DNA from: an uncultured Faecalibacterium sp.
GTDB lineage: Bacteria > Bacillota > Clostridia > Oscillospirales > Ruminococcaceae
Assembly: GCA_934561485.1 (NCBI GenBank)
Contig: CAKTGS010000006.1
Span: 1-44,815 of the forward strand
Reading direction: 5' to 3'
Length of the DNA: 44,815 nucleotides
A program made the translations under genes and the position numbers. The notes under the pieces were generated by a model, which worked only from the letters and a program-made list of their open reading frames with translations, ran no database searches and was not told the origin of the DNA. Within the stretch, counting starts at the first letter, position 1. Each line of letters starts with the position of its first letter. Of the stretch, positions 635 to 44,815 are shown in pieces.

Positions 635-672
635 AAAAACGCCCTCTGCCAAACTGAAATTTGGCAGAGGGC
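635..672 (-). terminator. T-box attenuator terminator
   Basis: A perfect 13-bp stem, GCCCTCTGCCAAA with TTTGGCAGAGGGC, around a 6-base loop, followed on the minus strand by a run of five T. It competes with the T-box antiterminator and sits just before the tyrS ribosome site. Confidence 0.9.
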
Positions 673-926
673 GAGAAAACTTCGCGGTACCACCTCTGTT
701 TGCCGTTTCCTCACAGAAACGGCCTCACGAGTGCGCACCCCAGAGTAGAAGTGACACTCCTGCGTTTGTAACGCTCGCACGCGGCACAGCCTACGAACCG
801 TTGGACGGCATTCAGCCTGCAGCTCCGGGAGGTATTTCGCCTGCTGCTCTGCAGCCCCTTTCACCAGCCGGGGCCTCTCTGGGCAAAGCACTTCAGGGTA
901 CTTATTCCCTTCATCGCCATTCACAA
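635..926 (-). promoter_or_regulatory. Tyrosine T-box riboswitch leader of tyrS
   Basis: tRNA-sensing leader that lets tyrS be transcribed when uncharged tRNA-Tyr accumulates. Read on the minus strand, the T-box core AGGTGGTACCGCG lies at 683-695; its UGGU would pair with an ACCA tRNA end. The Stem I landmarks AGAGAGG and GGCTGGTGAAA are recognisable, followed by GCGAAATACC, in which the tyrosine specifier codon TAC falls at 832-834. The alternative terminator is a 13-bp stem (641-653 with 660-672) followed by GTTTTTGG. The upstream limit is set from the likely transcription start and is approximate. Confidence 0.93.
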
Positions 927-28741: not shown

Positions 28742-29445
28742 GCTCGTTCTTTCTCTGTGAACGCCGTCAGCCGACAGTTCACACCATACTGTTTCTGCAA
28801 TAGGTCCGCCGTCTGCTGCCCCAGTGCCCGGCGCTGTGCCGTATCGGCCTGGTTGAGCACCGCATAAAATGTGCGGCTGCCCACCTGCCTGCGGCCGCCC
28901 TCTCTGCTTGCCAGCAGCTGCGCCAGAAGTTCCGGGGTCAGCAGGGTCTCCGGCCCGGTGTGCAGCAGGGCGCAGGCGTATTCCGTGCGGAAGCAGACCT
29001 CCCGCAGCGGCCTGCCCAGGGCAGAAAGCCCAGCCACTGCCAGCACAACATCGCTTTCCGGCAGAAGAACCGGCTCATGCGCCGCAGGTGCCTTGCAGGG
29101 CAGCCGCTTTGCACCGTCCGCTTCCAACAAGACAAAATCAGCCTGCGGCCGCCAGCCTGCCCACTGCTCCTGCAACGGAAAGGTCAGTTTGCCGCTCGGG
29201 GCAGCCGTGCCCGCCACGGCGTACCTTCCCTGTGCCCACAACGCGGCAAGCTGTGCATCGGTCTGTGCCCAGGCCCCATTTTGCGGGCACCGGATGTGGG
29301 TAGTGGTAGACACCAGCACCCGCCAGCCTTTTTGGGCGCAATGCCGCGCCATGGCATACAGCAGCGTGGTTTTGCCGCCGCCGCCCACCAGCGAGACCAC
29401 ACGGCCTTTTTCGGCCAGAAACGGAAATTCGGTTTCCAGGATCAT
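28738..29445 (-). CDS. yqeC: Selenium cofactor biosynthesis protein YqeC
   Basis: P-loop protein tied to the selenium-dependent molybdenum hydroxylase trait. The 235 residues have GGGGKTTL at 21-28, [12 protein letters not shown] VLVSTTTHI and [22 protein letters not shown], a characteristic YqeC stretch. Predicted ATP/GTP-dependent role in cofactor maturation. It overlaps the molybdopterin subunit stop by an ATGA junction and selD by another. Confidence 0.9.
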
Positions 29446-31733
29446 TTCTGATTCTCGGCCACAGCCATAGCGACCTGTTCCGGCGTGATGGGCAGCTCAT
29501 AGAAGCGGGTGCCGATGGCATTGTAAATAGCATCCGAAATGGCCGGAAGCGGCGTATTGATGACCACCTCACCGATGGACTTTGCACCAAAGGGGCCGTT
29601 CGGCTCGTAGCTGTTTTCAAATTCCATCCGGATCCTGCCCACATCCGTGCGGGCCGGAATCTTGTACTGGAAGAGCGAATTTTCTTCCGGGTAGCCGTTT
29701 TTGTCGTAGGTGATGTTCTCGGTCAGGGTCATGCCGATGCCCTGCAGCAGGCCGCCCTCAGCCTGCACACGGGTCAGATTTGGGTTGATGGGGGTGCCGC
29801 AGTCCACGCAGGCATCAAATTCCAGCAGCTTCACCTCACCGGTTTCGGTGTCCACTTCCACCTCAGCGGCACCCACCATGTACGGCGGCGGCGACAGCGG
29901 CGAAGTGTGGGTCTCGGTGGCTTCCAGCGGCACCATGTGGCCGAACTGGGAGGCGTAGGCGATTTCCGACAAGGTCTTTTTCTTTTCCGGAGCAGTGCTT
30001 TCAAACACCACCTTGCCGTCAAACTCCACCGCATCCTCCGGGCAGCCCAGCAGTTCGGCTCCCAGCTTGCAAATCTGGGTGCGCAGTTTCAGGGCGCACT
30101 TTTCGGTGGCTTTGCCGGTCACGTAGGCGGTGCTGGACGCATAGGAACCGGAATCGTAGGGCGAAGAATCGGTGTCTGCACTGAAAACCGCAATGTTGTC
30201 CAGCGGGCAGTCCAGCACCTCTGCTGCGATCTGTGCCTGGGTGGTGTCCGAGCCGGTGCCCATATCGGCAGAGCCGAGCAGCAGGGTGTAAAAGCCGTCA
30301 TCGTTCAATTTTAGGGTAGCACTGCCCACATCCATGCCGGAAATGCCGGACCCCTGCATGGCCATGCCCATGCCAACGGCCCGCACCTTGCCATTGCCCA
30401 GATCCCGGGACGGATATTTGTGCTCCCAGTCGATCATCTCACGTACCTTGACCAGGCACCGGTCCAGCGCACAGCTGGTGTTCACGGCCCCGTAATAAGC
30501 GGGCATCACATCGCCTTCCTGCACGGTGTTTTTCAGGCGCAGTACAAAGGGGTCCATATTCAGTTTATGGGCCAGCTCATTGACGGCAGATTCCACCGCG
30601 AACAGGCCCTGGGTCGCGCCGTAGCCGCGGTATGCACCAGCGGACATGTGGTTGGTGTACACCACATCGCTGACAAAGCGGAAAGCCTCGGCTTTGCCGT
30701 ACAGCGGGATGGATTTGTGGCCGGACAGGCCCACCGTGGTGGGGCCGTGCTCGCCGTAGGCACCTGTATTGGACAGCGTATACATATCAATGCCCTTTAC
30801 AATGCCGTCCCGGGTGGCACCCAGCCGCACATGGATTTCCATTTCATGGCGGGGCGAAGAAGCGATCTGGCTTTCCACCCGGCTGAAGATGATCTTGGAG
30901 GGCTTTTTGGTTTTCCAGGTCACAAAGGCCGGGTACACTTCGCTGACCGCCGTCTGTTTGGCTCCAAAGCCGCCGCCGATGCGGGGTTTGGCAACGCGGA
31001 TCATGGACTTGGGAATGTGCAGCGCGTTGGCAATGTTGCGGCGGGCATGGAACACGATCTGGGTAGAGCTGAGCACATTCAGCCGCCCGTAGGTGTCAAT
31101 GGAGCAATAGGTGCGGAAGGTCTCCATCATGGCCTGCTGGCAGGCCTTGGTGTGGTACACGTGGTCAATAACGATATCGCTGGCGGCCAGAACGGCATCA
31201 ATGTCGCCGCTGCCGCATTCATCGTGAGCGCACAGGTTGCGCTTGTTGTCGGCTCCCACCGGGCACAGGCTTTCCCAGTTGGCTTCCGGGTGCACAAGGA
31301 TGGGGTTATCCTTGGCGGTGTGGTAATCCAGCACCGGTTCTAGCACCTCATACTCCACCTTGATGAGCTTCAGGGCCTTGTCTACGCACTTTTCATCCTT
31401 GCCAGCCACAATGGCCACCACGTCACCCACAAAGCGCACATGGCGGTCGATCACCAGCCGGTCGTAGGGGCTGGCTTCCGGGTAGGTCTGGCCTGCTTCC
31501 GTATAGCGGCGGCCGTTCTGATCCACGTCCTCCCAGGTATAAATGGCTTCAATACCGGGCACCTTTTTGGCCACCATCGTGTTGATGGCTTTGACCATAG
31601 CGTTGGCATAGGGCGACCGCAGCAGTTTGACGATCAGGCAGTCCTGCGGAATCACATCGTCCATGTACACCGGCTGGCCGGTGACCAGCTGCATGGCATC
31701 CTTTTTGCGGAAAGGCTTATTGATGGTTTTCAT
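29442..31733 (-). CDS. Molybdenum hydroxylase, molybdopterin-binding (large) subunit
   Basis: Catalytic subunit of a xanthine dehydrogenase/purine hydroxylase-like complex. The 763 residues show the xanthine oxidase family order: substrate funnel region with FVGDVVAIVAG, GGGFGAKQ near 255, AYRGYGATQG (Arg in the FRGFG-like loop), and MoCo contacts GSADMGTGSDTTQAQIAAEVL. The catalytic glutamate is at 722 in GAKSIGE. No in-frame TGA. The selenium here would be a labile cofactor ligand, not selenocysteine. Substrate is not decided; purine is likely from the adjacent permease. It lies in the middle of a coupled operon. Confidence 0.93.
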   Translation of the reverse strand: MKTINKPFRKKDAMQLVTGQPVYMDDVIPQDCLIVKLLRSPYANAMVKAINTMVAKKVPGIEAIYTWEDVDQNGRRYTEAGQTYPEASPYDRLVIDRHVRFVGDVVAIVAGKDEKCVDKALKLIKVEYEVLEPVLDYHTAKDNPILVHPEANWESLCPVGADNKRNLCAHDECGSGDIDAVLAASDIVIDHVYHTKACQQAMMETFRTYCSIDTYGRLNVLSSTQIVFHARRNIANALHIPKSMIRVAKPRIGGGFGAKQTAVSEVYPAFVTWKTKKPSKIIFSRVESQIASSPRHEMEIHVRLGATRDGIVKGIDMYTLSNTGAYGEHGPTTVGLSGHKSIPLYGKAEAFRFVSDVVYTNHMSAGAYRGYGATQGLFAVESAVNELAHKLNMDPFVLRLKNTVQEGDVMPAYYGAVNTSCALDRCLVKVREMIDWEHKYPSRDLGNGKVRAVGMGMAMQGSGISGMDVGSATLKLNDDGFYTLLLGSADMGTGSDTTQAQIAAEVLDCPLDNIAVFSADTDSSPYDSGSYASSTAYVTGKATEKCALKLRTQICKLGAELLGCPEDAVEFDGKVVFESTAPEKKKTLSEIAYASQFGHMVPLEATETHTSPLSPPPYMVGAAEVEVDTETGEVKLLEFDACVDCGTPINPNLTRVQAEGGLLQGIGMTLTENITYDKNGYPEENSLFQYKIPARTDVGRIRMEFENSYEPNGPFGAKSIGEVVINTPLPAISDAIYNAIGTRFYELPITPEQVAMAVAENQK

Positions 31734-32200
31734 TCTGCGGCCTCCTTCTGCTTTTTCCAGGCCAGAAAGCTCTGGATACCGCGCAGCTGGCCCTCATAGC
31801 CGGAGCAGCGGCACAGGTTGCCGGAAAGGTATTCTTTGATCTCCTCTTCCGAGGGATACGGCTTTTCCCGGAACAGCGCCAGTGCATTTATGATAAAGCC
31901 CGGGTTGCAGAAGCCGCACTGTTCTGCGCCCTGGTCGGCAATGAACGCGCCGAACTCGGCGGCTTCCTCCTGCAGGCCTTCCAGCGTGGTTACCCGATGG
32001 CCACTGGCACGGACCGCCAGCACCGAGCAGGACAGCACCGGCTTTTCATCCAGAAACACGGTGCACAGCCCGCAGTTGGAAGTCTCGCAGCCGCGCTTGA
32101 CGCTCTTGCAGCCCTGTGCACGCACAAAGTCGATGAGCAGTGTATCCGGTGCCACATCGGCAGAAATTTTGGTTCCATTCAAGGTCAGGTTGATCTGCAT
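31730..32200 (-). CDS. Molybdenum hydroxylase, 2Fe-2S subunit
   Basis: Electron-transfer subunit with two [2Fe-2S] clusters. The 156 residues carry C38, C43, C46 and C58 (plant-ferredoxin cluster) and C95, C98, C130 and C132 (second cluster; QCGFCNPG, GNLCRCSGY). A stand-alone small subunit means the enzyme is of the three-subunit xdhABC-like type. ATGA overlap with the large subunit. Confidence 0.95.
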   Translation of the reverse strand: MQINLTLNGTKISADVAPDTLLIDFVRAQGCKSVKRGCETSNCGLCTVFLDEKPVLSCSVLAVRASGHRVTTLEGLQEEAAEFGAFIADQGAEQCGFCNPGFIINALALFREKPYPSEEEIKEYLSGNLCRCSGYEGQLRGIQSFLAWKKQKEAAE

Positions 32201-32983
32201 TTAGGTTTCCTCCTGTAGGGCACGGTTTTCCAGCTCCTGTGCAGCACGCCGCACCAGCACGCCGGTCAGGTGGCGGCGGTATGCGGCGCTGCCGCGCATG
32301 TTCGAGCCGGTGACCACCTGCTGTCGGATATCCTCGGCCAGCTGCTGTGCCGGTGCAGCCGGCATTTCAAACAGCACGGCCTTGAGCGGGCGGGCCCCCA
32401 CCGCAAACCGGAAGCGGCCATCCTGCAGGCGGGCAGCGGCGCAGGTCAGCACCGGAATGTCGGTCTGACTGTTGCGCACTGACTGATAGAAAAATTCCGC
32501 CGCCTCTTTTTTTACGATCAGCCGCACAAGAATGTCCCGGTCGTAGGGGCGCTCGGCATACTCCCGCAGGGGCACAATGCCGCCCTTGTACAGTTCCACC
32601 GAGCAGTCCATGGCCAGAAACAGGGTCAGCACATCCGAAAAGCCGAACCGGCTGTAAATGCTGCCGCCCACCGTGGCCAGATTGCGCAGCTGCACGCCCA
32701 CAATGTGGCGCAGCGCTTCCTTCACAGCACCGTGGGTATAGGTGTCCAGTCCGGGGTGGGTCTCCAGCTGGCGCAGGGTGACCATGGCCCCAATGGAAAA
32801 GCCCTCCTCCGTTTCCTCAATGGTATCCAGTCCCAGGCCGGAAAGGTCGATGGCTGTGCCAACGTTGATCGTTTCCATTTTAAGCCAGATCATCCCGCCG
32901 ATCACACGGTTGGGCTTTTTCTGATTCAGCCGCCAGGCTTCTTCCAGACTTTCGGCCCGTTTATAGTCTCGGATCGTCATCAT
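32201..32983 (-). CDS. Molybdenum hydroxylase, FAD-binding subunit
   Basis: FAD domain protein of the molybdopterin dehydrogenase family, 260 residues. The N-terminal lobe has RVIGGMIWLKM and the FAD-pyrophosphate region with IVGVQLRNLATVGGSIYSRFGFSD. The C-terminal lobe carries the CO dehydrogenase flavoprotein type domain (RDILVRLIVKKEAAEFFYQSVR, AVGARPLKAVLFEMPA). First gene of the operon, behind a sigma-A promoter. Confidence 0.92.
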   Translation of the reverse strand: MMTIRDYKRAESLEEAWRLNQKKPNRVIGGMIWLKMETINVGTAIDLSGLGLDTIEETEEGFSIGAMVTLRQLETHPGLDTYTHGAVKEALRHIVGVQLRNLATVGGSIYSRFGFSDVLTLFLAMDCSVELYKGGIVPLREYAERPYDRDILVRLIVKKEAAEFFYQSVRNSQTDIPVLTCAAARLQDGRFRFAVGARPLKAVLFEMPAAPAQQLAEDIRQQVVTGSNMRGSAAYRRHLTGVLVRRAAQELENRALQEET

Positions 32984-33016
32984 GTGCAGGTCCCTCTCTT
33001 TTTACTTGCTTTTCTT

Positions 33017-33046
33017 ATTTTAGCACAGACACGGATTGCGTTTCAA
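33017..33046 (-). promoter_or_regulatory. Promoter of the molybdenum hydroxylase operon
   Basis: Minus-strand TTGAAA (33041-33046), 18-base spacer, TAAAAT (33017-33022). Its -35 overlaps the -35 of the divergent plus-strand promoter, so one regulator could control both sides. Confidence 0.72.
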
Positions 33047-33065
33047 TTCCCGATTGCGTTATAAT
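33036..33065 (+). promoter_or_regulatory. Promoter of the mocA-like gene, with GATTGCGTT direct repeats
   Basis: TTGCGT (33036-33041), 18-base spacer, TATAAT (33060-33065). The 9-base direct repeat GATTGCGTT occurs at 33034-33042 and 33052-33060 (18-base period), covering the -35 and the spacer end. A regulator site is possible. Confidence 0.75.
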
Positions 33066-33096
33066 ACAAAAAAACAGGAAAAAGAAGGGCTTGTGT

Positions 33097-33750
33097 ATGC
33101 AAACGCATCCGTCCATTGGCTGTGTGATCATGGCTTCCGGCCTGAGCCGCCGCTTTGGCTCCAACAAACTGCTGACCCCGTTTGCCGGGCAGCCGATGCT
33201 CTGCCGTGCCTTTGCCGCCACAAACACCCCTCTGCTGGCGGCGCGCATCGTGGTGACGCGCTCGGCAGCCGTGCAGAAATTGTGCCAGGCACACGGCGTT
33301 CCCGTGCTGTTGCACGGCCTGCCCTTTCGCAGCGATACCGTCCGGCTGGGGCTGACCGCCCTGCTGGAGCTGCAGCCGGACCTTGCGGGCTGCATGTTCC
33401 TGCCCGGTGATCAGCCGCTGCTGCGCCGGGAAAGCGTGAATCAGCTGCTGACTGCCTTTGCGCAGACACAAAAAGAAACAGAACGGGCAATCTTCCGCGC
33501 AGGGTTCCCGGTCAGCAATGACACAGGTTCCCTTGTGGGAAGCCCCGTTCTGTTTGGAAGCGGATTTTTTACCGAACTGTGCACCCTGCCGGAAGGCAAA
33601 GGCGGCAATGTTCTAATCAAAAAGTATCCTGCGCAGGTTCACACGGTCTGCCTTGCAAACCGGGAAGAACTGCTGGATGCAGACACCCCCGAAGCGCTGG
33701 CACAGCTGGAAATGCTGGCCCGGCAGAAAGGCTGCATTTATTCTGCCTGA
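33097..33750 (+). CDS. MocA/MobA-like molybdopterin nucleotidyltransferase
   Basis: Predicted CTP (or GTP):molybdopterin nucleotidyltransferase of the MobA-like NTP transferase fold, which makes the dinucleotide cofactor of hydroxylases. The 217 residues start at the ATG at 33097 with AAGG 8 bases upstream. The nucleotide loop ASGLSRRFGSNKLL is at about 13-26 and LPGDQPLL near 104. MCD-type cytidylyltransferase (MocA) is favoured because xanthine dehydrogenase-like enzymes use MCD, but MobA-type specificity cannot be excluded by eye. It is divergent from the operon and its 3' end overlaps the convergent permease by 13 bases. Confidence 0.82.
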   Translation: MQTHPSIGCVIMASGLSRRFGSNKLLTPFAGQPMLCRAFAATNTPLLAARIVVTRSAAVQKLCQAHGVPVLLHGLPFRSDTVRLGLTALLELQPDLAGCMFLPGDQPLLRRESVNQLLTAFAQTQKETERAIFRAGFPVSNDTGSLVGSPVLFGSGFFTELCTLPEGKGGNVLIKKYPAQVHTVCLANREELLDADTPEALAQLEMLARQKGCIYSA

Positions 33751-35177
33751 TCGTTTTTCGGCAGCAGGACATTGAGCAGGATCGCCACAAAGGCGGCCGG
33801 GACAATGCCGGACTCACCGCAGATCAGCTGGAAAGCATGGGGGGTGTTGGCCAGAATGCCGCTGTTGGCACCCATGCCGTAGCCCACACCCAGTGCCACA
33901 GAAACAATGGTCAGCTGGCGCGGGGTCATCTTCTCTTTGGTGATCAGCTGAATTCCGCTGACCACGATGGAAGAGAACATCATGACGGCCGCACCGCCCA
34001 GAACAGCCTGCGGCATGATGGAGATCAGCGCGCCCAGCTTGGGGATCAGACCGCACAGGATCAGGAACACGGCACCGGAAGCCAGGGCAATGCGGTTGAC
34101 CACCTTGGTCATGGCCACCAGGCCCACGTTCTGGCTGAAGGAAGTGTTGGGCAGCACGCCGAACAGCGCTGCAAAGGTGGAGCCAAGGCCATCGCAGATG
34201 ACGCCGCCGGACAGTTCCTTGTCGGTGGGTTCGCGGTTCATGCCGCCTTCCATCACGCCAGAGATGTCACCCACCGTTTCCACAGCAGTAACAACGAACA
34301 TGATGAGCACCGGCAGGATGGCACGCATATCAAACACAACTTTGACCGGGAACAGCTTGGGAATTGCAAACCAGGAAGCCTGCGCCACTTTATCCCAGTT
34401 GAGCACCCATGCCTTGGTGAACTCTACTCCATCGGCCGTGACGCCGGTGGTGGGCAGCACAAAGCCCATGACAAAGGCCGCCAGATAACCGGCCAGAATG
34501 CCAATGAGGATGGCCGAAGAACTGAGGAAGCCAGTGGTCCAGTGCTTGAAAATCAGGATGACCACCAGCACAAACAGGGCCAGCAGCAGGTTTTCCATGG
34601 AGCCGAAGTCCTTGGCGCTGTTGCCGCCGCCGAAAGAGTTGATGCCCACCGAGATCAGCGACAGGCCGATGGACAGCACCACCGTGCCGGTGACCACCGG
34701 CGGGAAGAACTTGCGCAAAGGCTTGAGGAAGAAGCCCAGCACACTTTCAAAAATGCCGCCAATAAGGGATGCACCCATAATGGCTCCATAGGCCAGCACA
34801 CCGCCGCCCATGCTGCCCACTACACTGTTGAACACGCCGATAAAACCGGAGCTGGTGCCCATGATGATGGGCACGCCGCCGCCCACAGGCCCAATGGTGA
34901 ACAGCTGCACCAGCGTAACAACACCGGCCACGAACATAGCACTTTGCAGCAGGGTGACCTGCAGGTCTGCAAATTCACCGCCGGCAATGCCGCAGGCACT
35001 GGTGATGATCAGCAGCGGGGTCAGGTTGCCCACAAACATGGCGCAGACATGCTGCAGGCCCAGCGGAATGGCCTGTTTCAGCGACATTTTGGCGTCAAAT
35101 TGGTACGCAGCCTCTTCGAGCTTGACTTCCTTCAAATGTTCCACTCTCCTCAGTTTTGACAAATTGTTGTTGGACAT
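33738..35177 (-). CDS. NCS2 xanthine/uracil permease family transporter
   Basis: Nucleobase:cation symporter-2, 479 residues, about 12-14 hydrophobic segments. The NCS2 signature QNVGLVAMTK is near residue 350; PLGLQHVCAMFVGNLTPLLI marks the N-terminal segment. Substrate could be xanthine, uric acid or uracil. The neighbourhood favours purine, but this is inference. The ATG at 35177 has no clear ribosome site and lies only about 14 bases from the predicted RNA start; a TTG at 35135 with GAGGAG 10 bases upstream is a real alternative. Confidence 0.88.
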   Translation of the reverse strand: MSNNNLSKLRRVEHLKEVKLEEAAYQFDAKMSLKQAIPLGLQHVCAMFVGNLTPLLIITSACGIAGGEFADLQVTLLQSAMFVAGVVTLVQLFTIGPVGGGVPIIMGTSSGFIGVFNSVVGSMGGGVLAYGAIMGASLIGGIFESVLGFFLKPLRKFFPPVVTGTVVLSIGLSLISVGINSFGGGNSAKDFGSMENLLLALFVLVVILIFKHWTTGFLSSSAILIGILAGYLAAFVMGFVLPTTGVTADGVEFTKAWVLNWDKVAQASWFAIPKLFPVKVVFDMRAILPVLIMFVVTAVETVGDISGVMEGGMNREPTDKELSGGVICDGLGSTFAALFGVLPNTSFSQNVGLVAMTKVVNRIALASGAVFLILCGLIPKLGALISIMPQAVLGGAAVMMFSSIVVSGIQLITKEKMTPRQLTIVSVALGVGYGMGANSGILANTPHAFQLICGESGIVPAAFVAILLNVLLPKNDQAE

Positions 35178-39403: not shown

Positions 39404-39432
39404 ACGGTATGCGTGCGCCGGAAAAAGTATGA
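39404..39432 (-). promoter_or_regulatory. Sigma-E-like promoter of the sipL-like gene
   Basis: Minus-strand TCATACT (39426-39432), a 14-base spacer, CATACCGT (39404-39411). This fits the sigma-E consensus (kmATATT, 13-16 bases, CATACAnT). It lies 35 bases before the start codon. Confidence 0.6.
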
Positions 39433-39435
39433 CGC

Positions 39436-39474
39436 AAAAACACCCCCGCACGGCAAGGCTGCCGGACAGGGGTG
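39436..39474 (-). terminator. Terminator after the spoVM-like gene
   Basis: Minus-strand CACCCC...GGGGTG outer stem with an inner CGGCA/TGCCG helix, followed by five T. It separates spoVM from sipL. Confidence 0.85.
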
Positions 39475-39486
39475 CTGGAATGGGAT

Positions 39487-39573
39487 TCATTCCTGTGGTT
39501 CTTTTTTGATGCCGAACAGTCTGCGCAGCAGGCCGCGCAGGTACCGTGGACTCTGAATGACAACGATCTGCAT
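39487..39573 (-). CDS. spoVM: SpoVM-like spore morphogenetic micro-protein, 28 residues
   Basis: Amphipathic micro-protein that, in Bacillus, inserts in the outer forespore membrane by sensing positive curvature and anchors SpoIVA. The frame begins at the ATG at 39573, after AAAGGCGGGG. Like Bacillus SpoVM it has a hydrophobic start (MQIVVIQ), P9, a Y11/L12 region and then a basic amphipathic helix (RGLLRRLFGIKK) and a charged tail. Pro9 aligns with the proline needed for SpoVM function. It lies directly after thiN, the exact Bacillus position of spoVM. It is only 29 codons long, so it is easily missed. Confidence 0.82.
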   Translation of the reverse strand: MQIVVIQSPRYLRGLLRRLFGIKKEPQE

Positions 39574-39600
39574 ATTCACCCCGCCTTTCCATCAGTTACC

Positions 39601-39629
39601 ACAGTATAAGCAGCCGCGGCGCAAAATGT
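39601..39629 (-). promoter_or_regulatory. Promoter upstream of spoVM, sigma-E-like
   Basis: Minus-strand ACATTTT (39623-39629), 14 bases, TATACTGT (39601-39608). The -10 matches 6 of 8 sigma-E positions and the -35 5 of 7. A sigma-A reading (TATACT with a poor -35) is possible. Confidence 0.45.
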
Positions 39630-39649: not shown

Positions 39650-40285
39650 TCAGTCGGGCAGGGTTTCCAGCACCACAAGGGCACCGGTGCGGGTAGAAAT
39701 GGTAATGCAGTCCGACCCTGCGGCGTATTCGTTGCTGACGCCCAGCGGGTAGCCTGTGGTCAGCACGGCGTCCGTCAGCTCATAAAAAGAGCCGCGCTCG
39801 CACACGCCATCGGCCCTGCCCTCCATGGGAAAGACCGAAAGATAAAAATAGTTTTCCTTCGGGTAGCGGCGGGTCTCCCCCGGCATCACAAAGGTAATGC
39901 GGGTGCGCTCGTCCTGCAGGACAGCACGCACCCCGCGCTGTTCCAGCCCCAGGCCCGTGGCCAGATTCGCAAGGGTATGCTCCAGGCGGCGTCCGCCCAG
40001 GCCCCCCAGCATCAGCACCTCGTCAAAGCCTTTTTCAGAGGCAAGCTTGGCTGCATACTCGGTGTCGGTATCGTCCTTGACGTGCGGCAGAACCACAATG
40101 TCATCGTCCTCCTGCTGCGGGCAGGGGGCGGTATCGAAATCGCCCACCACAATGTTGGGCCTGCAGTGCAGCGGTGCACAGTTGCGGTAACCGGCATCGC
40201 AGGCAATAATAAAGTCGTCTGCCCGCAGCAGCGCGGCCAGCTCCGGCGAAACCGGGCAGGCCGAAAGGATCACACAACGTGGCAT
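39650..40285 (-). CDS. thiN: Thiamine pyrophosphokinase ThiN
   Basis: Transfers pyrophosphate from ATP to thiamine. The 211 residues include IIACDAGYRNC...PNIVVGDFDT (about 26-53), KDDTDTEYA and GGLGGRRLEHTLANL (about 92-107), the TPK catalytic and substrate motifs. C-terminal strands (SVFPM, TDAVLTTGYPLGVSNE) fit the thiamine-binding domain. It follows rsgA by 16 bases. In Bacillus the order is rsgA-rpe-thiN-spoVM; rpe is missing here. Confidence 0.95.
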   Translation of the reverse strand: MPRCVILSACPVSPELAALLRADDFIIACDAGYRNCAPLHCRPNIVVGDFDTAPCPQQEDDDIVVLPHVKDDTDTEYAAKLASEKGFDEVLMLGGLGGRRLEHTLANLATGLGLEQRGVRAVLQDERTRITFVMPGETRRYPKENYFYLSVFPMEGRADGVCERGSFYELTDAVLTTGYPLGVSNEYAAGSDCITISTRTGALVVLETLPD

Positions 40286-40300
40286 GGTATCCGTCCTTCC

Positions 40301-41179
40301 TCAAACTTTCGGACGCTGCCAGTCCTTGACGTCCTTTACTTCCTCATACATGGCGCAGTAGCTGTCGTACCGGGTCTGCGAAAGCAGCCCCTCGGCCAGT
40401 GCGGCGCGCACGGCGCAGCCTTTTTCGGCCCGATGGGAGCAGCCGGTGAACTGGCACTGGCCCAGGTACGGTCCAAACTCCGGGAACGCATGTTCCAGGT
40501 TCTCCTTTGGGATGAACCCGGCACGGTTTGCTTCCAGGCTCGCAAAGCCCGGCGTATCCGCAATGCGTCCGCCAAAGGCTTCAAAAATGGTCACTTCACG
40601 GGTGGTGTGGCGGCCGCGGCCCAGTTTCTGGCTGATGGCGCTGGTCTCCCGCGCAGCATCCGGCAGCAGAGCATTCAGCAGGGTGGATTTGCCCACGCCG
40701 GAGTTGCCGCAGAAAGCGCACAGCCGCCCGCTGATCCACTGCCGGATCTCTTCCAGTCCGGCCCCGGTCTCGTAGTCGATGCGGATAAACGGCAGGGTTG
40801 ATTTTTCATAGGCTTTCCGCAAAAATTCCGCTTCGGCCAGATCGCCCTTGGTGCACACGATCACCGGCTGCACCCCTTTGTCCACCGCAATGGCCGAAAG
40901 CTTATCCAGCACCAGGGTGCTGGGGGTGGGCTGAGTGGTGCTGGCTACCAGGAACAGCACATCCAGGTTTGCCACTGGCGGCCGCACAAATACATTGCGG
41001 CGGGGTGTGATCTGTGCGATCACGGCAGCACCGTTTTCGGTTTCCAGAGTAACCTCATCCCCTGCCACAGGGGTGATCTTCTGTTTGCGAAAGATGCCGC
41101 GGGGCTTGCATTCCACAAGGCCCTCAGCTGTTTTTACATAATAAAACCCGCCGATGCCTTTTACAATATAACCTTCCAT
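40301..41179 (-). CDS. rsgA: Small-subunit ribosome biogenesis GTPase RsgA
   Basis: Circularly permuted GTPase that helps 30S maturation. The ATG at 41179 has GGAGG 5 bases upstream and gives 292 residues. An N-terminal OB fold (1-70), then G4-type TKGD (110-113), G1 GNSGVGKS (158-165), G3 DTPG, and a zinc-type C-terminus (CQFTGCSHRAEKGC). In Bacillus, PrkC phosphorylates RsgA/CpgA; prkC is directly upstream. Confidence 0.96.
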   Translation of the reverse strand: MEGYIVKGIGGFYYVKTAEGLVECKPRGIFRKQKITPVAGDEVTLETENGAAVIAQITPRRNVFVRPPVANLDVLFLVASTTQPTPSTLVLDKLSAIAVDKGVQPVIVCTKGDLAEAEFLRKAYEKSTLPFIRIDYETGAGLEEIRQWISGRLCAFCGNSGVGKSTLLNALLPDAARETSAISQKLGRGRHTTREVTIFEAFGGRIADTPGFASLEANRAGFIPKENLEHAFPEFGPYLGQCQFTGCSHRAEKGCAVRAALAEGLLSQTRYDSYCAMYEEVKDVKDWQRPKV

Positions 41180-41190
41180 GCGCGCCTCCG

Positions 41191-43092
41191 TCAGGACAGC
41201 AGCGAGGTCCACCAGTCCACAAGGCCGGACTGGTTGTCACTGCTGGCGCCGGAAGTTTCTGCCGAGCTGCTGGAGGACGAACTGCCGCCCCACAAGCCGC
41301 TCCACCAATCGCTGCCGCCGCCCGTGCTCTCGCTGGAAGATGCAGGCTCTTCCGGTTCCGGCTGCGGTTCCGGCCCTGCACTGACCACAATGCTGACACG
41401 GCTGTTCAGTTTGACGCTGGAACCGGCTGCGGGGTCCTGCCCGATCACGGTACCAGCAGGCTGATCGCTGTACTGCTGCGACTGGCTGCCCAGGCCAAGA
41501 TGGTTCTGCACCAGCAGGGTGCGCACATCATCCACGCTCAGGCCGGTGAGCGAAGGCACCTTGGCAGTGGTTGCCACCTGCGGACGGCTGACATAGACTA
41601 CCACCGTGGAACCGGCCTCCACCTGGCTGCCGGCTGCAGGGTCGGTGCGGATGACAGCACCCGTTGCCACCGAGGTGTCCACGGCCTGGGTGACCAGCAC
41701 CGAAACGCCCAGATCCTTGAGCTGCTGCTCTGCATCCGCCTGCACGTAGTTGGTCACATCCGGCACGGTAACGTACTGGGTGCCCAGGCTGACGGTCAGG
41801 GTCACGTTCTGGCCTTCCCGCACGGTACGGCCGGAAACAGGCGACTGCTTGTAGATATAGCCCGCTGCATAGTTGCTGTTGTACTCCTGCTCCCAATCCA
41901 CCGAGATCTGGCCGGAAGCCACCTGGTCCGTGGCCTGGGCCTGCTCCTGGGTCATGCCGATATAATCTCCCAGGGTAATGTCGGCCTTATTGTTCATCAG
42001 GTTGGAGGAATCGTTCAGGATCATCCAGCACAGTGCAAGGCAGGCCACGGCAAATGCAATGGTAATGCCAAACAGCACCGGCAAAAAGGCCGAGCTGCGC
42101 TTTTTTTTGCGGGCTGTTTTTTTGCCCTTGCCGCGCGGGGCGGGCTGTTCGGGCTGGCGATGGGCGCGGTTCTGATTCATCGTTCGTTTCACCACCTTTT
42201 CGGGTGCATCTTCGGTAATATACTGATATTCAAACAACACAGAGGGGTTCTGCACATAGGTTTCCAGCGCGTCCAGCATTTCCCGTGCCGAAGCGTAGCG
42301 GTTCTGCGGGAGCTTGGCCATGGCCTTTTCGGTGATCTCCACCAGCGCTGCCGGAACATCCGGTGCGATCTCGTGCAGCGATTTCGGCTGGTCCGAGATC
42401 TGCTTGATGGCCACTTCCACCACATCGTCCGCGTCAAAGGGCAGGTGGCCCGAGAGCATCTCATACATCATGACACCCACCGAGTAGATGTCACTGGTGC
42501 AGTCGGTTTCATCACCCTTGGCCTGTTCCGGGCTGATGTAGTGGACGCTGCCCATGGCTTTTCCGGCCAGCAGCTGATTTTCTGCACGGGAAATGCGGGC
42601 AATGCCAAAGTCCATCATGCGCAGCTGACCATTGTCCAGCAGCATAATGTTCTGGGGCTTGATGTCCCGGTGTACCACGCCGTTTGCATGGGCATGTTCC
42701 AGCGCCTTGAGGATCTGGGAAATAAAGTGCACGGTTTCGCGGCTGGTCAGCTTGCCGCCCCGTTCGTTGAGGTACTCCCGCAGGGTCATGCCATCCACAT
42801 ATTCCATCACGATATACTGCAGATGGTCGTTGACCGAAACATCGTACACCTTGACGATGTTGGGGTGGTTGAGCAGAGAGATGGCCTTGGATTCATTCTT
42901 GAAGCGGCGCACAAGGTCAGGGTCGTGCATATACTCCTGCTTGAGCACCTTGACGGCTACCACCGTGCCTGCGGGCACCGGGCCGTTCTGCCCCAGCATG
43001 ACCGCTTTATACACATTGGCCATGCCGCCGGAACCGATCAGTTCCCGGACTTCGTACAGGCCGTCCAGCTTTTTGCCAATCAGATTATCCAT
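41191..43092 (-). CDS. prkC: PASTA-domain Ser/Thr protein kinase PrkC (Stk)
   Basis: Eukaryotic-type membrane kinase that senses cell-wall fragments. The kinase domain spans about 10-280: G-loop GSGGMANV (20-27), K48, HRDIKPQN (141-148), DFG 161-163. A basic stretch (about 318-333) precedes one membrane segment, 336-359. Three PASTA repeats follow (about 369-436, 437-507, 508-573). A Ser-rich tail (about 575-633) carries two DWW motifs (595-597, 626-628) and is absent from standard PrkC. The 633-residue length is normal. It overlaps prpC by 8 bases. Confidence 0.95.
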   Translation of the reverse strand: MDNLIGKKLDGLYEVRELIGSGGMANVYKAVMLGQNGPVPAGTVVAVKVLKQEYMHDPDLVRRFKNESKAISLLNHPNIVKVYDVSVNDHLQYIVMEYVDGMTLREYLNERGGKLTSRETVHFISQILKALEHAHANGVVHRDIKPQNIMLLDNGQLRMMDFGIARISRAENQLLAGKAMGSVHYISPEQAKGDETDCTSDIYSVGVMMYEMLSGHLPFDADDVVEVAIKQISDQPKSLHEIAPDVPAALVEITEKAMAKLPQNRYASAREMLDALETYVQNPSVLFEYQYITEDAPEKVVKRTMNQNRAHRQPEQPAPRGKGKKTARKKKRSSAFLPVLFGITIAFAVACLALCWMILNDSSNLMNNKADITLGDYIGMTQEQAQATDQVASGQISVDWEQEYNSNYAAGYIYKQSPVSGRTVREGQNVTLTVSLGTQYVTVPDVTNYVQADAEQQLKDLGVSVLVTQAVDTSVATGAVIRTDPAAGSQVEAGSTVVVYVSRPQVATTAKVPSLTGLSVDDVRTLLVQNHLGLGSQSQQYSDQPAGTVIGQDPAAGSSVKLNSRVSIVVSAGPEPQPEPEEPASSSESTGGGSDWWSGLWGGSSSSSSSAETSGASSDNQSGLVDWWTSLLS

Positions 43093-43837
43093 TGTGCACC
43101 TCCAGCGGTTCTACGCCCAGCAGCAGCGCTGTGATGTTGTCCGGACCGCCGTTTTCGTTGGCTGCCGCCACCAGCAGGTCCGGCAGGTCGTAGAAGCGGC
43201 CGCTGCGCAGCAGCTGTTCCAGCTGCGGTTTGGGCACCGCATTGGTCAGGCCATCGGAACACAGCAGCAGGATATCCCCCGGCTGCACCGCCGTGCAGGT
43301 AAACTCCGGGTCCAGCCGGTAGTCCACGCCCAGGGCACGGGTGATGATATTTTTCTGCGGGTGATGCTCGGCTTCCTCCACCGTAATGGTACCGCAGTCC
43401 ACCAGCTCCTGCACATAGGAGTGGTCGTGGGTGAGCTGCGCAAGGCAGCCGTCCCGGAAGCGGTAGGCCCGGGAATCGCCTGCATGGCACAGATAGGCCT
43501 TGCCGGAGCGCACCAGGGCGCACACCGCTGTGGTGCCCATACCGGCCAGCGATTCCTCGCGGATCGCCTTTTGGAATACAAAGCGGTTGGCACTGAGCAG
43601 TGTCTTTTTCAGGAAGGTTTCCTCTTCGCCGGGCAGGCACTTGGACGCATACTGCTCCTGGAAGCACCGCTCAATAATGTCGCACGCACTCTGCGAGGCC
43701 TCGCGGCCCCCGCGTGCGCCGCCCATGCCATCGCACACCAAGGCCCAGGCAGCCCCGCCGGGCAGCTGCCCGGCCCGGTAATCGTCCTGGTTGTCCTGGC
43801 GGACCCGGCCCACATCCGTTTTTCCTGCAAGTTTCAT
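43085..43837 (-). CDS. prpC: PP2C-type Ser/Thr phosphatase PrpC (Stp)
   Basis: Metal-dependent phosphatase that opposes PrkC, 250 residues. PP2C motifs: DVGRVRQDNQDDY (8-20), DGMGGARGGREAS (about 36-48), GMGTTAV, CHAGDSRAYR, LLCSDGLTNAV and GGPDNIT near the C-terminus. The four metal-binding aspartates are present. Its end overlaps prkC by 8 bases, so the pair is co-translated. Confidence 0.96.
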   Translation of the reverse strand: MKLAGKTDVGRVRQDNQDDYRAGQLPGGAAWALVCDGMGGARGGREASQSACDIIERCFQEQYASKCLPGEEETFLKKTLLSANRFVFQKAIREESLAGMGTTAVCALVRSGKAYLCHAGDSRAYRFRDGCLAQLTHDHSYVQELVDCGTITVEEAEHHPQKNIITRALGVDYRLDPEFTCTAVQPGDILLLCSDGLTNAVPKPQLEQLLRSGRFYDLPDLLVAAANENGGPDNITALLLGVEPLEVHNG

Positions 43838-43852: not shown

Positions 43853-44815
43853 TTATGCCTTCCCGTTCATTTCATCGCGGCGCAGCTGCCCGCATGCGGC
43901 GCTGATTTCGCTGCCCAGACGGCGGCGCACCGTGGCATTGACGCCCAGACTTTCCAGCTTTTGCTGGAAGCGGTGCACGTTGGCTGCATCGGTGGCGGAA
44001 TACGGGCTGCCGTCCACCGGGTTGATGGGGATCAGATTTACATGCGCGCCCATGCCCCGGATCAGGTTGGCCAGCTGTTTTGCGCAGGCATCGGAATCAT
44101 TGACGCCGCGCACCATGGAATATTCAAAGCTGACCCGGCGGCCCGTGGTATCCTGATACCGGCGCACTGCCTGCATCAGCTGCTCCACCGGGTAGGCATC
44201 GTTCACCGGCATCATGCCGCTGCGGATCTCATTGTTGGGAGCGTGCAGCGACACGGAAAGGGTCAGCTGCAGCTTTTTCTCGGCCAGCAGGTCGATCTTG
44301 GGCACAAGGCCGCAGGTGGAAAGGCTGATGTTTCGCATCCCGATGTTGACCCCCTCGGGCGAGGTGATGTTTTCCAGAAACTTCATCACTTCGTCAAAGT
44401 TGTCCAGCGGCTCGCCGATGCCCATGAGCACGATGTGGGAAATGCGCTCACCGATGTCCTTCTGCGCGGTGTAGATTTCCGCGCAGATTTCGCCTGCTTC
44501 CAGGTTGCGCACACGGCCTGCCTGGGTGGAAGCGCAGAAGCGGCAGCCCATGCGGCAGCCCACCTGAGTGGACACACACACCGTGTTGCCGTAGTGGTAG
44601 CGCATGACCACGGTTTCGATGCAGTTGCCGTCTGCCATGCGCAGCAGATATTTTACGGTGCCGTCTTTTGCTTCCTGTCGGCGCTCGATCTTCGGGGCAG
44701 CAATGTAAAAGCGCTCTTCCAACTTGGCCAGCAGGGTTTTGGGCTGGTCGGTCATGGCCGAAAACTCGGTGACCAGCTTCTGATGCACCCAGTGGAAGAT
44801 CTGCTTTGCCCGGAA
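43853..44815 (-). CDS. rlmN: Dual-specificity RNA methyltransferase RlmN, 3' part
   Basis: Radical SAM methyltransferase that makes m2A2503 in 23S rRNA and m2A37 in some tRNAs. 320 residues are visible; the frame stays open to the window edge (FRAKQIFHWV before the first internal Met), so the true start is just outside. Radical SAM cysteines lie in GCRMGCRFCAS (CX3CX2C), with GEPLDNFDEV, and the C-terminal catalytic cysteine in ISAACGQLR. The gene heads the rlmN-prpC-prkC-rsgA-thiN run, as in Bacillus. Confidence 0.95.
   Translation of the reverse strand, partial: FRAKQIFHWVHQKLVTEFSAMTDQPKTLLAKLEERFYIAAPKIERRQEAKDGTVKYLLRMADGNCIETVVMRYHYGNTVCVSTQVGCRMGCRFCASTQAGRVRNLEAGEICAEIYTAQKDIGERISHIVLMGIGEPLDNFDEVMKFLENITSPEGVNIGMRNISLSTCGLVPKIDLLAEKKLQLTLSVSLHAPNNEIRSGMMPVNDAYPVEQLMQAVRRYQDTTGRRVSFEYSMVRGVNDSDACAKQLANLIRGMGAHVNLIPINPVDGSPYSATDAANVHRFQQKLESLGVNATVRRRLGSEISAACGQLRRDEMNGKA

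Follow-up and report, generated by a model that had tools for sequence, protein, structure and literature searches.

A predicted spoVM orthologue beside sipL, conserved under purifying selection in Faecalibacterium and found in a clade without detectable alpha/beta SASPs

We assign a 28-codon frame of the window, by which we mean the whole 44,815-nucleotide stretch of Faecalibacterium DNA analysed here, as an orthologue of spoVM, and its predicted product (MQIVVIQSPRYLRGLLRRLFGIKKEPQE) is thereby a previously unannotated member of the SpoVM family. Such genes are rarely recognised in annotation, owing to their shortness (PMC3533761), and our literature search found no paper joining SpoVM with Faecalibacterium, nor any joining it with Gemmiger. 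As argued below, the gene quite probably serves the normal role of SpoVM in an endospore-type programme that is still in use, the product of which would lack the protection afforded by SASPs.

The identity of the product was probed with several models. It aligned to positions 1–25 of the 26 in the NCBIfam model NF033436 (SpoVM_broad) with E 1.2e-5, its score of 25.2 bits being below the curated cut-off of 31 bits. A profile built on 30 SpoVMs of genomes other than Faecalibacterium scored the same frame at 44.8 bits (E 4.7e-13) and ranked it first among the 1139 open stretches of the window; when 40 windows were shuffled, none of their 71,572 stretches scored above 9.6 bits. Both models thereby upheld the likeness to SpoVM that an initial annotation of the frame had proposed, although the NCBIfam match stayed under its cut-off. 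A Pfam search with the product gave no match, and the 28-mer alone as query matched no PDB chain, whereas a profile of 19 genus and family SpoVMs retrieved one chain, the SpoVM of 2mvh, in a gapless alignment over residues 1–21 (E 0.069). SpoVM proteins have about 26 and at most 30 residues, a size that the window product shares with the other genus copies (24–30 residues in the 29 with a clean frame, 27 residues at locus L085). The same annotation had described a basic amphipathic helix, of which the basic character was confirmed; the amphipathicity was only moderate for the composition (hydrophobic moment 0.67, reached by 131 of 2000 composition shuffles) and on its own is weak as evidence. 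That the frame would instead be a chance ORF, or encode an unrelated small membrane peptide, could be argued from its very short length, its score below the curated cut-off and this unexceptional amphipathicity, but we hold the probability thereof to be practically negligible, considering the outside-genus profile score compared with those of the shuffled windows, the way in which it lines up residue by residue with the B. subtilis protein in 2mvh, in spite of the E value, and the thiN synteny and frame-confined codon conservation described below.

The gene was found to have its own predicted transcription and translation signals (Table 1), including the ribosome site and the terminator that had been noted earlier. 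An in-frame GTG is located two codons upstream of the ATG; the copies in relatives begin at ATG. In all 31 copies (the window and 30 loci of the genus) the motif GAAAGG occurred no more than 22 nt ahead of the start. In 28 of these 31 the gene was followed by TTTT preceded by a hairpin with a folding energy of -12 kcal/mol or lower, that of the window having a stability of -28.3 kcal/mol (z -4.6, with none of 200 shuffles equally stable). Further upstream, 23 of the 31 copies carried a promoter-like block 55–63 nt before the start, found in shuffled sequences at a mean of 0.01 and a maximum of 1. A different pattern preceded sipL in 10 of the 26 regions compared (mean 0.11 and maximum 2 in shuffles), and a pattern of that kind also preceded spoIVA in five of ten cases; we take this sipL pattern to resemble the sigma-E consensus. 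The shuffle counts for both patterns are flattering, because the spoVM pattern was written after viewing the alignment and that of sipL was likewise chosen after viewing the sequences. Since the conserved spoVM block is unlike the pattern before sipL and spoIVA, we do not claim sigma-E control of spoVM.

Table 1. Features at the spoVM locus of the window and their positions.
Feature	Position	Strand	Remarks
sipL, SPOCS (SipL) repeats and C-terminal LysM, 506 residues	37849..39369	-	Pfam
Promoter-like pattern of sipL, (G/T)CATA-N16-CATA	39408..39432	-	Separate from spoVM block
Predicted terminator hairpin, then T-rich run	39439..39476	-	3' of spoVM stop
Predicted spoVM orthologue	39487..39573	-	28 codons and stop, ATG start
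Ribosome-binding site GGAAAGGCGGGG	39579..39590	-	Just upstream of spoVM ATG
Conserved promoter-like block, ACATT-N16-TATA(A/C)T	39603..39629	-	Upstream of spoVM
thiN, thiamine pyrophosphokinase	39650..40285	-	Marks spoVM position
rsgA, ribosome small subunit GTPase	40301..41212	-	Model matches
prkC-type PASTA serine/threonine kinase	41191..43092	-	NF033483, 523 bits
prpC/stp1-type PP2C phosphatase	43085..43837	-	NF033484, 250.6 bits
rlmN	43853..44788	-	TIGR00048, 384.9 bits

The genes at this locus lie in the order rlmN-prpC-prkC-rsgA-thiN-spoVM, then sipL, and the location of spoVM after thiN is one that we take it to have in B. subtilis also. The proposal that the frame lies at the Bacillus spoVM position therefore holds, given the prkC-rsgA-thiN order and the presence of thiN directly upstream of spoVM in all 30 genus loci, with the presumed difference from the Bacillus order that rpe is missing and sipL stands in place of rpmB. 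Downstream, sipL was found in 19 of the 30 genus loci; among the best 30 family loci by score, thiN was upstream in 18 and sipL downstream in five. The product of the neighbouring gene matched PF12673 in two stretches (60.9 bits) and PF01476 (24 bits), both over cut-off, and thus has the SPOCS domains and C-terminal LysM domain that define membership in SipL. Our SipL search gave ten loci, being those of nine Faecalibacterium genomes at 64–77% identity and one Clostridia MAG at 27%. In one genome (G007, L112:1308-5307), thiN, spoVM, sipL and spoIVA were adjacent on one strand, so that three basement-layer genes are clustered. Elsewhere in the window we noted a T-box leader RNA (664-923, minus strand; Rfam RF00230, 115.4 bits) and, at 29442-35177, ORFs that from the impression of their translations resemble a three-subunit molybdenum hydroxylase, adjoined by a xanthine/uracil family permease (PF00860).

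A SpoVM match (E 0.1 or better) was obtained in each of 31 Faecalibacterium genomes, over the cut-off in 19 and under it in 12. The proline at residue 9 of the 28-residue window product, which had been pointed out initially, recurred in all 30 genus copies read, one of which (L085) was first located by a filter requiring Pro9 and later again by profile; the match in genome G147, covering model positions 8–26 only and giving no locus, was left out of these copies. Over 30 aligned copies (29 from the genus together with the window), V5, S8, P9, G14, L16, F20 and G21 were invariant. For the spoVM frame the dN/dS was 0.20 when pooled over 27 distinct sequences, compared with 0.94 and 2.9 for the two other frames of the strand. 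The L085 copy, shifted by a contig end, was omitted from the pooled value and restored for the upstream alignment and the disjoint-pair counts. As the pooled pairs are non-independent, we hand-picked 11 disjoint pairs from the ThiN tree, on which the dN/dS was 0.12 (pS 0.48, pN 0.088). The low dN/dS and the conservation across the genus show spoVM to be a protein-coding gene under strong constraint. A lack of conservation in relatives, or a dN/dS near 1, had been named at the outset as the findings that would speak against the gene, and the results went the other way on both counts. Outside Faecalibacterium, 91 of 96 family copies had Pro9, a contig end truncating one of the remaining five, and the common pattern in the family was M-[KQ]-[IV]-[VI]-V-x-x-S-P-[KR]. 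Four family genomes (G081, G119, G126 and G054) had a SpoVM without Pro9, and in two more (G041 and G111) a stop was found inside the SpoVM-matched stretch; these are possibly decaying copies.

Alpha/beta SASPs normally protect spore DNA. Matches to PF00269 (alpha/beta SASP) over cut-off were found in none of the 31 Faecalibacterium genomes (best E 0.088), in a search that a very divergent SASP could escape and among genomes that may be incomplete; in the family, 85 of 119 genomes had such a match. These 119 were divided into 77 with both SpoVM and SASP, 21 with SpoVM only, eight with SASP only and 13 with neither, all 98 genomes with a SpoVM match being covered in the analysis of family loci. 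Because 13 of the 34 SASP-negative family genomes have no SpoVM match, we conclude that spoVM can be lost. Residue 2 of SpoVM followed the same division: Gln2 was present in 17 of the 21 SpoVM-only family genomes, and among 127 genomes (126 of the family and the outgroup G010) Lys2 was found in 75 of 78 that were SASP-positive (the others having one Gln, one Arg and one unread) and Gln2 in 43 of 49 that were SASP-negative. Outside Faecalibacterium, the corresponding counts were 75 of 78 for Lys2 and 15 of 19 for Gln2.

For the phylogeny of these traits we used a ThiN tree of 79 rows, comprising the window and the ThiN sequences identified in 82 of the 127 genomes, less four of <120 residues. 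Of the 15 genomes outside Faecalibacterium that are SASP-negative with Gln2, seven had no usable ThiN and are absent from the tree. In this tree Faecalibacterium, the window and eight other genomes formed a clade of 39 rows (SH-aLRT 99), wherein every fetched member was SASP-negative and all but two rows had Gln2. The window fell among the Faecalibacterium rows, within a starred group of 15, with F. prausnitzii CNCM I-4541 (G001) nearest to it by path. With a single clade of this kind, the simplest account is that SASPs were lost and Gln2 was gained about one time each, at or close to the same branch, SpoVM having been kept under selection from then on. Starred branches gave one independent residue-2/SASP pair and the full set of branches gave three, and in none of these pairs did residue 2 change in the same direction as SASP. 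As the ThiN tree gives one clade, which both traits mark, a coupling between residue 2 and SASP is untestable with it and we do not claim their co-evolution.

We also analysed other sporulation genes in ten related genomes, nine of Faecalibacterium and the outgroup G010. A classical endospore former would, besides alpha/beta SASPs, have Spo0A with four sporulation sigma factors, a SpoVA channel with the GPR protease, and the DMP engulfment complex. Both SpoIVA and Spo0A were over cut-off in all ten, and the SpoIVA of G007 had the ATPase, middle and C-terminal domains all present. For sigma-E there were matches in ten of ten genomes, with best scores of 301–329 bits in the nine of Faecalibacterium and 354.6 in G010, the only one over the cut-off of 348.6. 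SpoIIE was under its cut-off in all ten, with just 31 bits in G008. In G009, Spo0A, SpoIVB and SpoIIAB passed their cut-offs, and SigE, SigG, SigK, SigF, SpoIIAA, SpoIIGA and SpoIIE were found, all under the NCBIfam equivalog cut-offs; SpoIIGA passed in Pfam despite this. SpoVA (SpoVAC/SpoVAEB) and GPR, the SASP-degrading protease, were present in G010 and in eight of the nine Faecalibacterium genomes, G008 (a 1.8 Mb MAG) being without both. The GPR of Faecalibacterium matched positions 2–229 only of the 306 in the model, and two aligned copies had 73% mutual identity and 38% identity to an outgroup fragment cut at both ends. In Faecalibacterium, GPR is kept beside spoVA (L108:11208-12119 and L109:9337-10206) though no alpha/beta SASP was found. 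With regards to engulfment, what speaks against an intact programme is that, according to PMC7924749, the spoIIIA genes are retained in a group to which Faecalibacterium belongs, but SpoIID and SpoIIB are absent and the rest of the DMP complex (SpoIID, SpoIIM, SpoIIP) is almost missing there.

Such a gene content could mean that spoVM is a not-yet-decayed relic of lost sporulation, as many sporulation proteins are below their curated cut-offs, SASPs were not found in the genus and engulfment genes are reported missing (PMC7924749). We consider this very improbable, since the gene has a match in every genome of the genus and conserved promoter-like and ribosome sites, changes slowly at the protein level on the disjoint pairs while synonymous sites differ at 48%, and has no match in some SASP-negative family genomes, demonstrating that it can be lost. 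The initial annotation was partly sustained: its reading as a SpoVM gene at the spoVM position is well founded, but the gene does not settle whether this lineage builds true spores. Spo0A, SpoIVA and a divergent sigma cascade are present, but against them stand the SASP result, the many proteins under cut-offs and the engulfment genes reported missing in PMC7924749.

We infer that the clade still runs an endospore-type programme, without detectable alpha/beta SASPs. In this programme SpoVM, a basic helix of 28 residues kinked by a proline, would most likely recognise the convex curvature of the mother-cell-derived membrane that encloses the engulfed forespore, insert into that membrane and anchor the SpoIVA polymer there; SipL would then bind SpoIVA and carry coat assembly onward. 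Curvature sensing, SpoIVA binding and mother-cell timing are here attributed to the Faecalibacterium protein by analogy, and nothing in the present data contradicts the SpoVM role known from B. subtilis and C. difficile. The strong conservation of spoVM suggests that the clade still uses the forespore-coating step, judging from its genes, the formation of resistant spores being a separate matter.

The SpoVM-SpoIVA-SipL set could also have been repurposed, either for coating a daughter compartment or a membrane inside the cell during some process other than dormancy, such as formation of a SASP-less non-resistant internal cell, or for a role in the vegetative envelope. SASP loss with SpoVM retention in one clade, the replacement of Lys2 by Gln2 and the common description of Faecalibacterium as non-spore-forming would agree with repurposing. 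We nonetheless regard it as unlikely, because the gene content resembles that of ordinary spore formers: matches over cut-off were obtained for Spo0A, SpoIVA, SpoIVB and SpoIIAB, and a sigma-factor cascade, SpoVA and GPR can be made out. A more specific picture, which we find possible but short of probable, is that Faecalibacterium and its sister lineages run a selectively maintained endospore-type programme and make a coated internal cell, wrapped by SpoVM, SpoIVA and SipL and devoid of alpha/beta SASPs and thus of classical DNA protection. Such a cell may be a spore that is cryptic and fragile, or else offspring that does not go dormant, with the change from Lys2 to Gln in that clade being part of the remodelling. 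If true, a SASP-less coated internal cell would be made by an abundant gut commensal thought not to sporulate.

What is notable is the combination of a genus called non-spore-forming, a SpoVM under strong selection together with SipL, SpoIVA and Spo0A, and a clade without detectable alpha/beta SASPs. The contrast between SpoVM retained and SASPs gone is open to experimental test, and the question that it touches is how the oxygen-sensitive Faecalibacterium is transferred between hosts. In the human gut, few bacteria are as abundant as F. prausnitzii (PMC5814915), and one review calls it a spore-former in passing (PMC8953710). Since two non-sporogenous Clostridia are recorded by Galperin and colleagues as lacking SASP genes (PMC3533761), the finding of either spores or no spores in Faecalibacterium would be informative.

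Compared with known systems, the window product is similar in size to B. subtilis SpoVM (26 residues; PDB 2mvh) and aligns with it start to start over residues 1–21, having in common Ile6, Pro9, a basic residue 10, Leu12, Gly14, Arg17 and Gly21. Pro9 is the sole invariant residue in a published SpoVM alignment, according to its legend (PMC5607322, Fig. 1), and Ile6 of the B. subtilis protein is required for SpoIVA binding (PMC5607322). The window has Gln2 and Leu15 whereas B. subtilis has Lys2 and Ile15, at which the substitutions K2A and I15A block cortex production via CmpA in that species (PMC5607322); as CmpA is reported in the same source to be absent from Clostridia, Gln2 and Leu15 may be tolerated. 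The surroundings also differ, with spoVM being followed by sipL in the window and by rpmB in B. subtilis, and with SipL as the partner in the window setting in place of SpoVID. C. difficile is more alike in providing a clostridial setting with SpoIVA and a LysM-bearing SipL, and there spoVM is a sigma-E gene (PMC5607322) located near rpmB (PMC5607322), unlike that of the window, which lies beside sipL with its own promoter-like block. In both B. subtilis and C. difficile, SpoVM binds SpoIVA and embeds in the outer membrane of the forespore, to which positive curvature directs it; in C. difficile the LysM domain of SipL is in turn bound by SpoIVA (PMC5607322). Under laboratory conditions C. difficile can largely do without its SpoVM (PMC5607322), and for that reason a Faecalibacterium spoVM mutant might look mild too.
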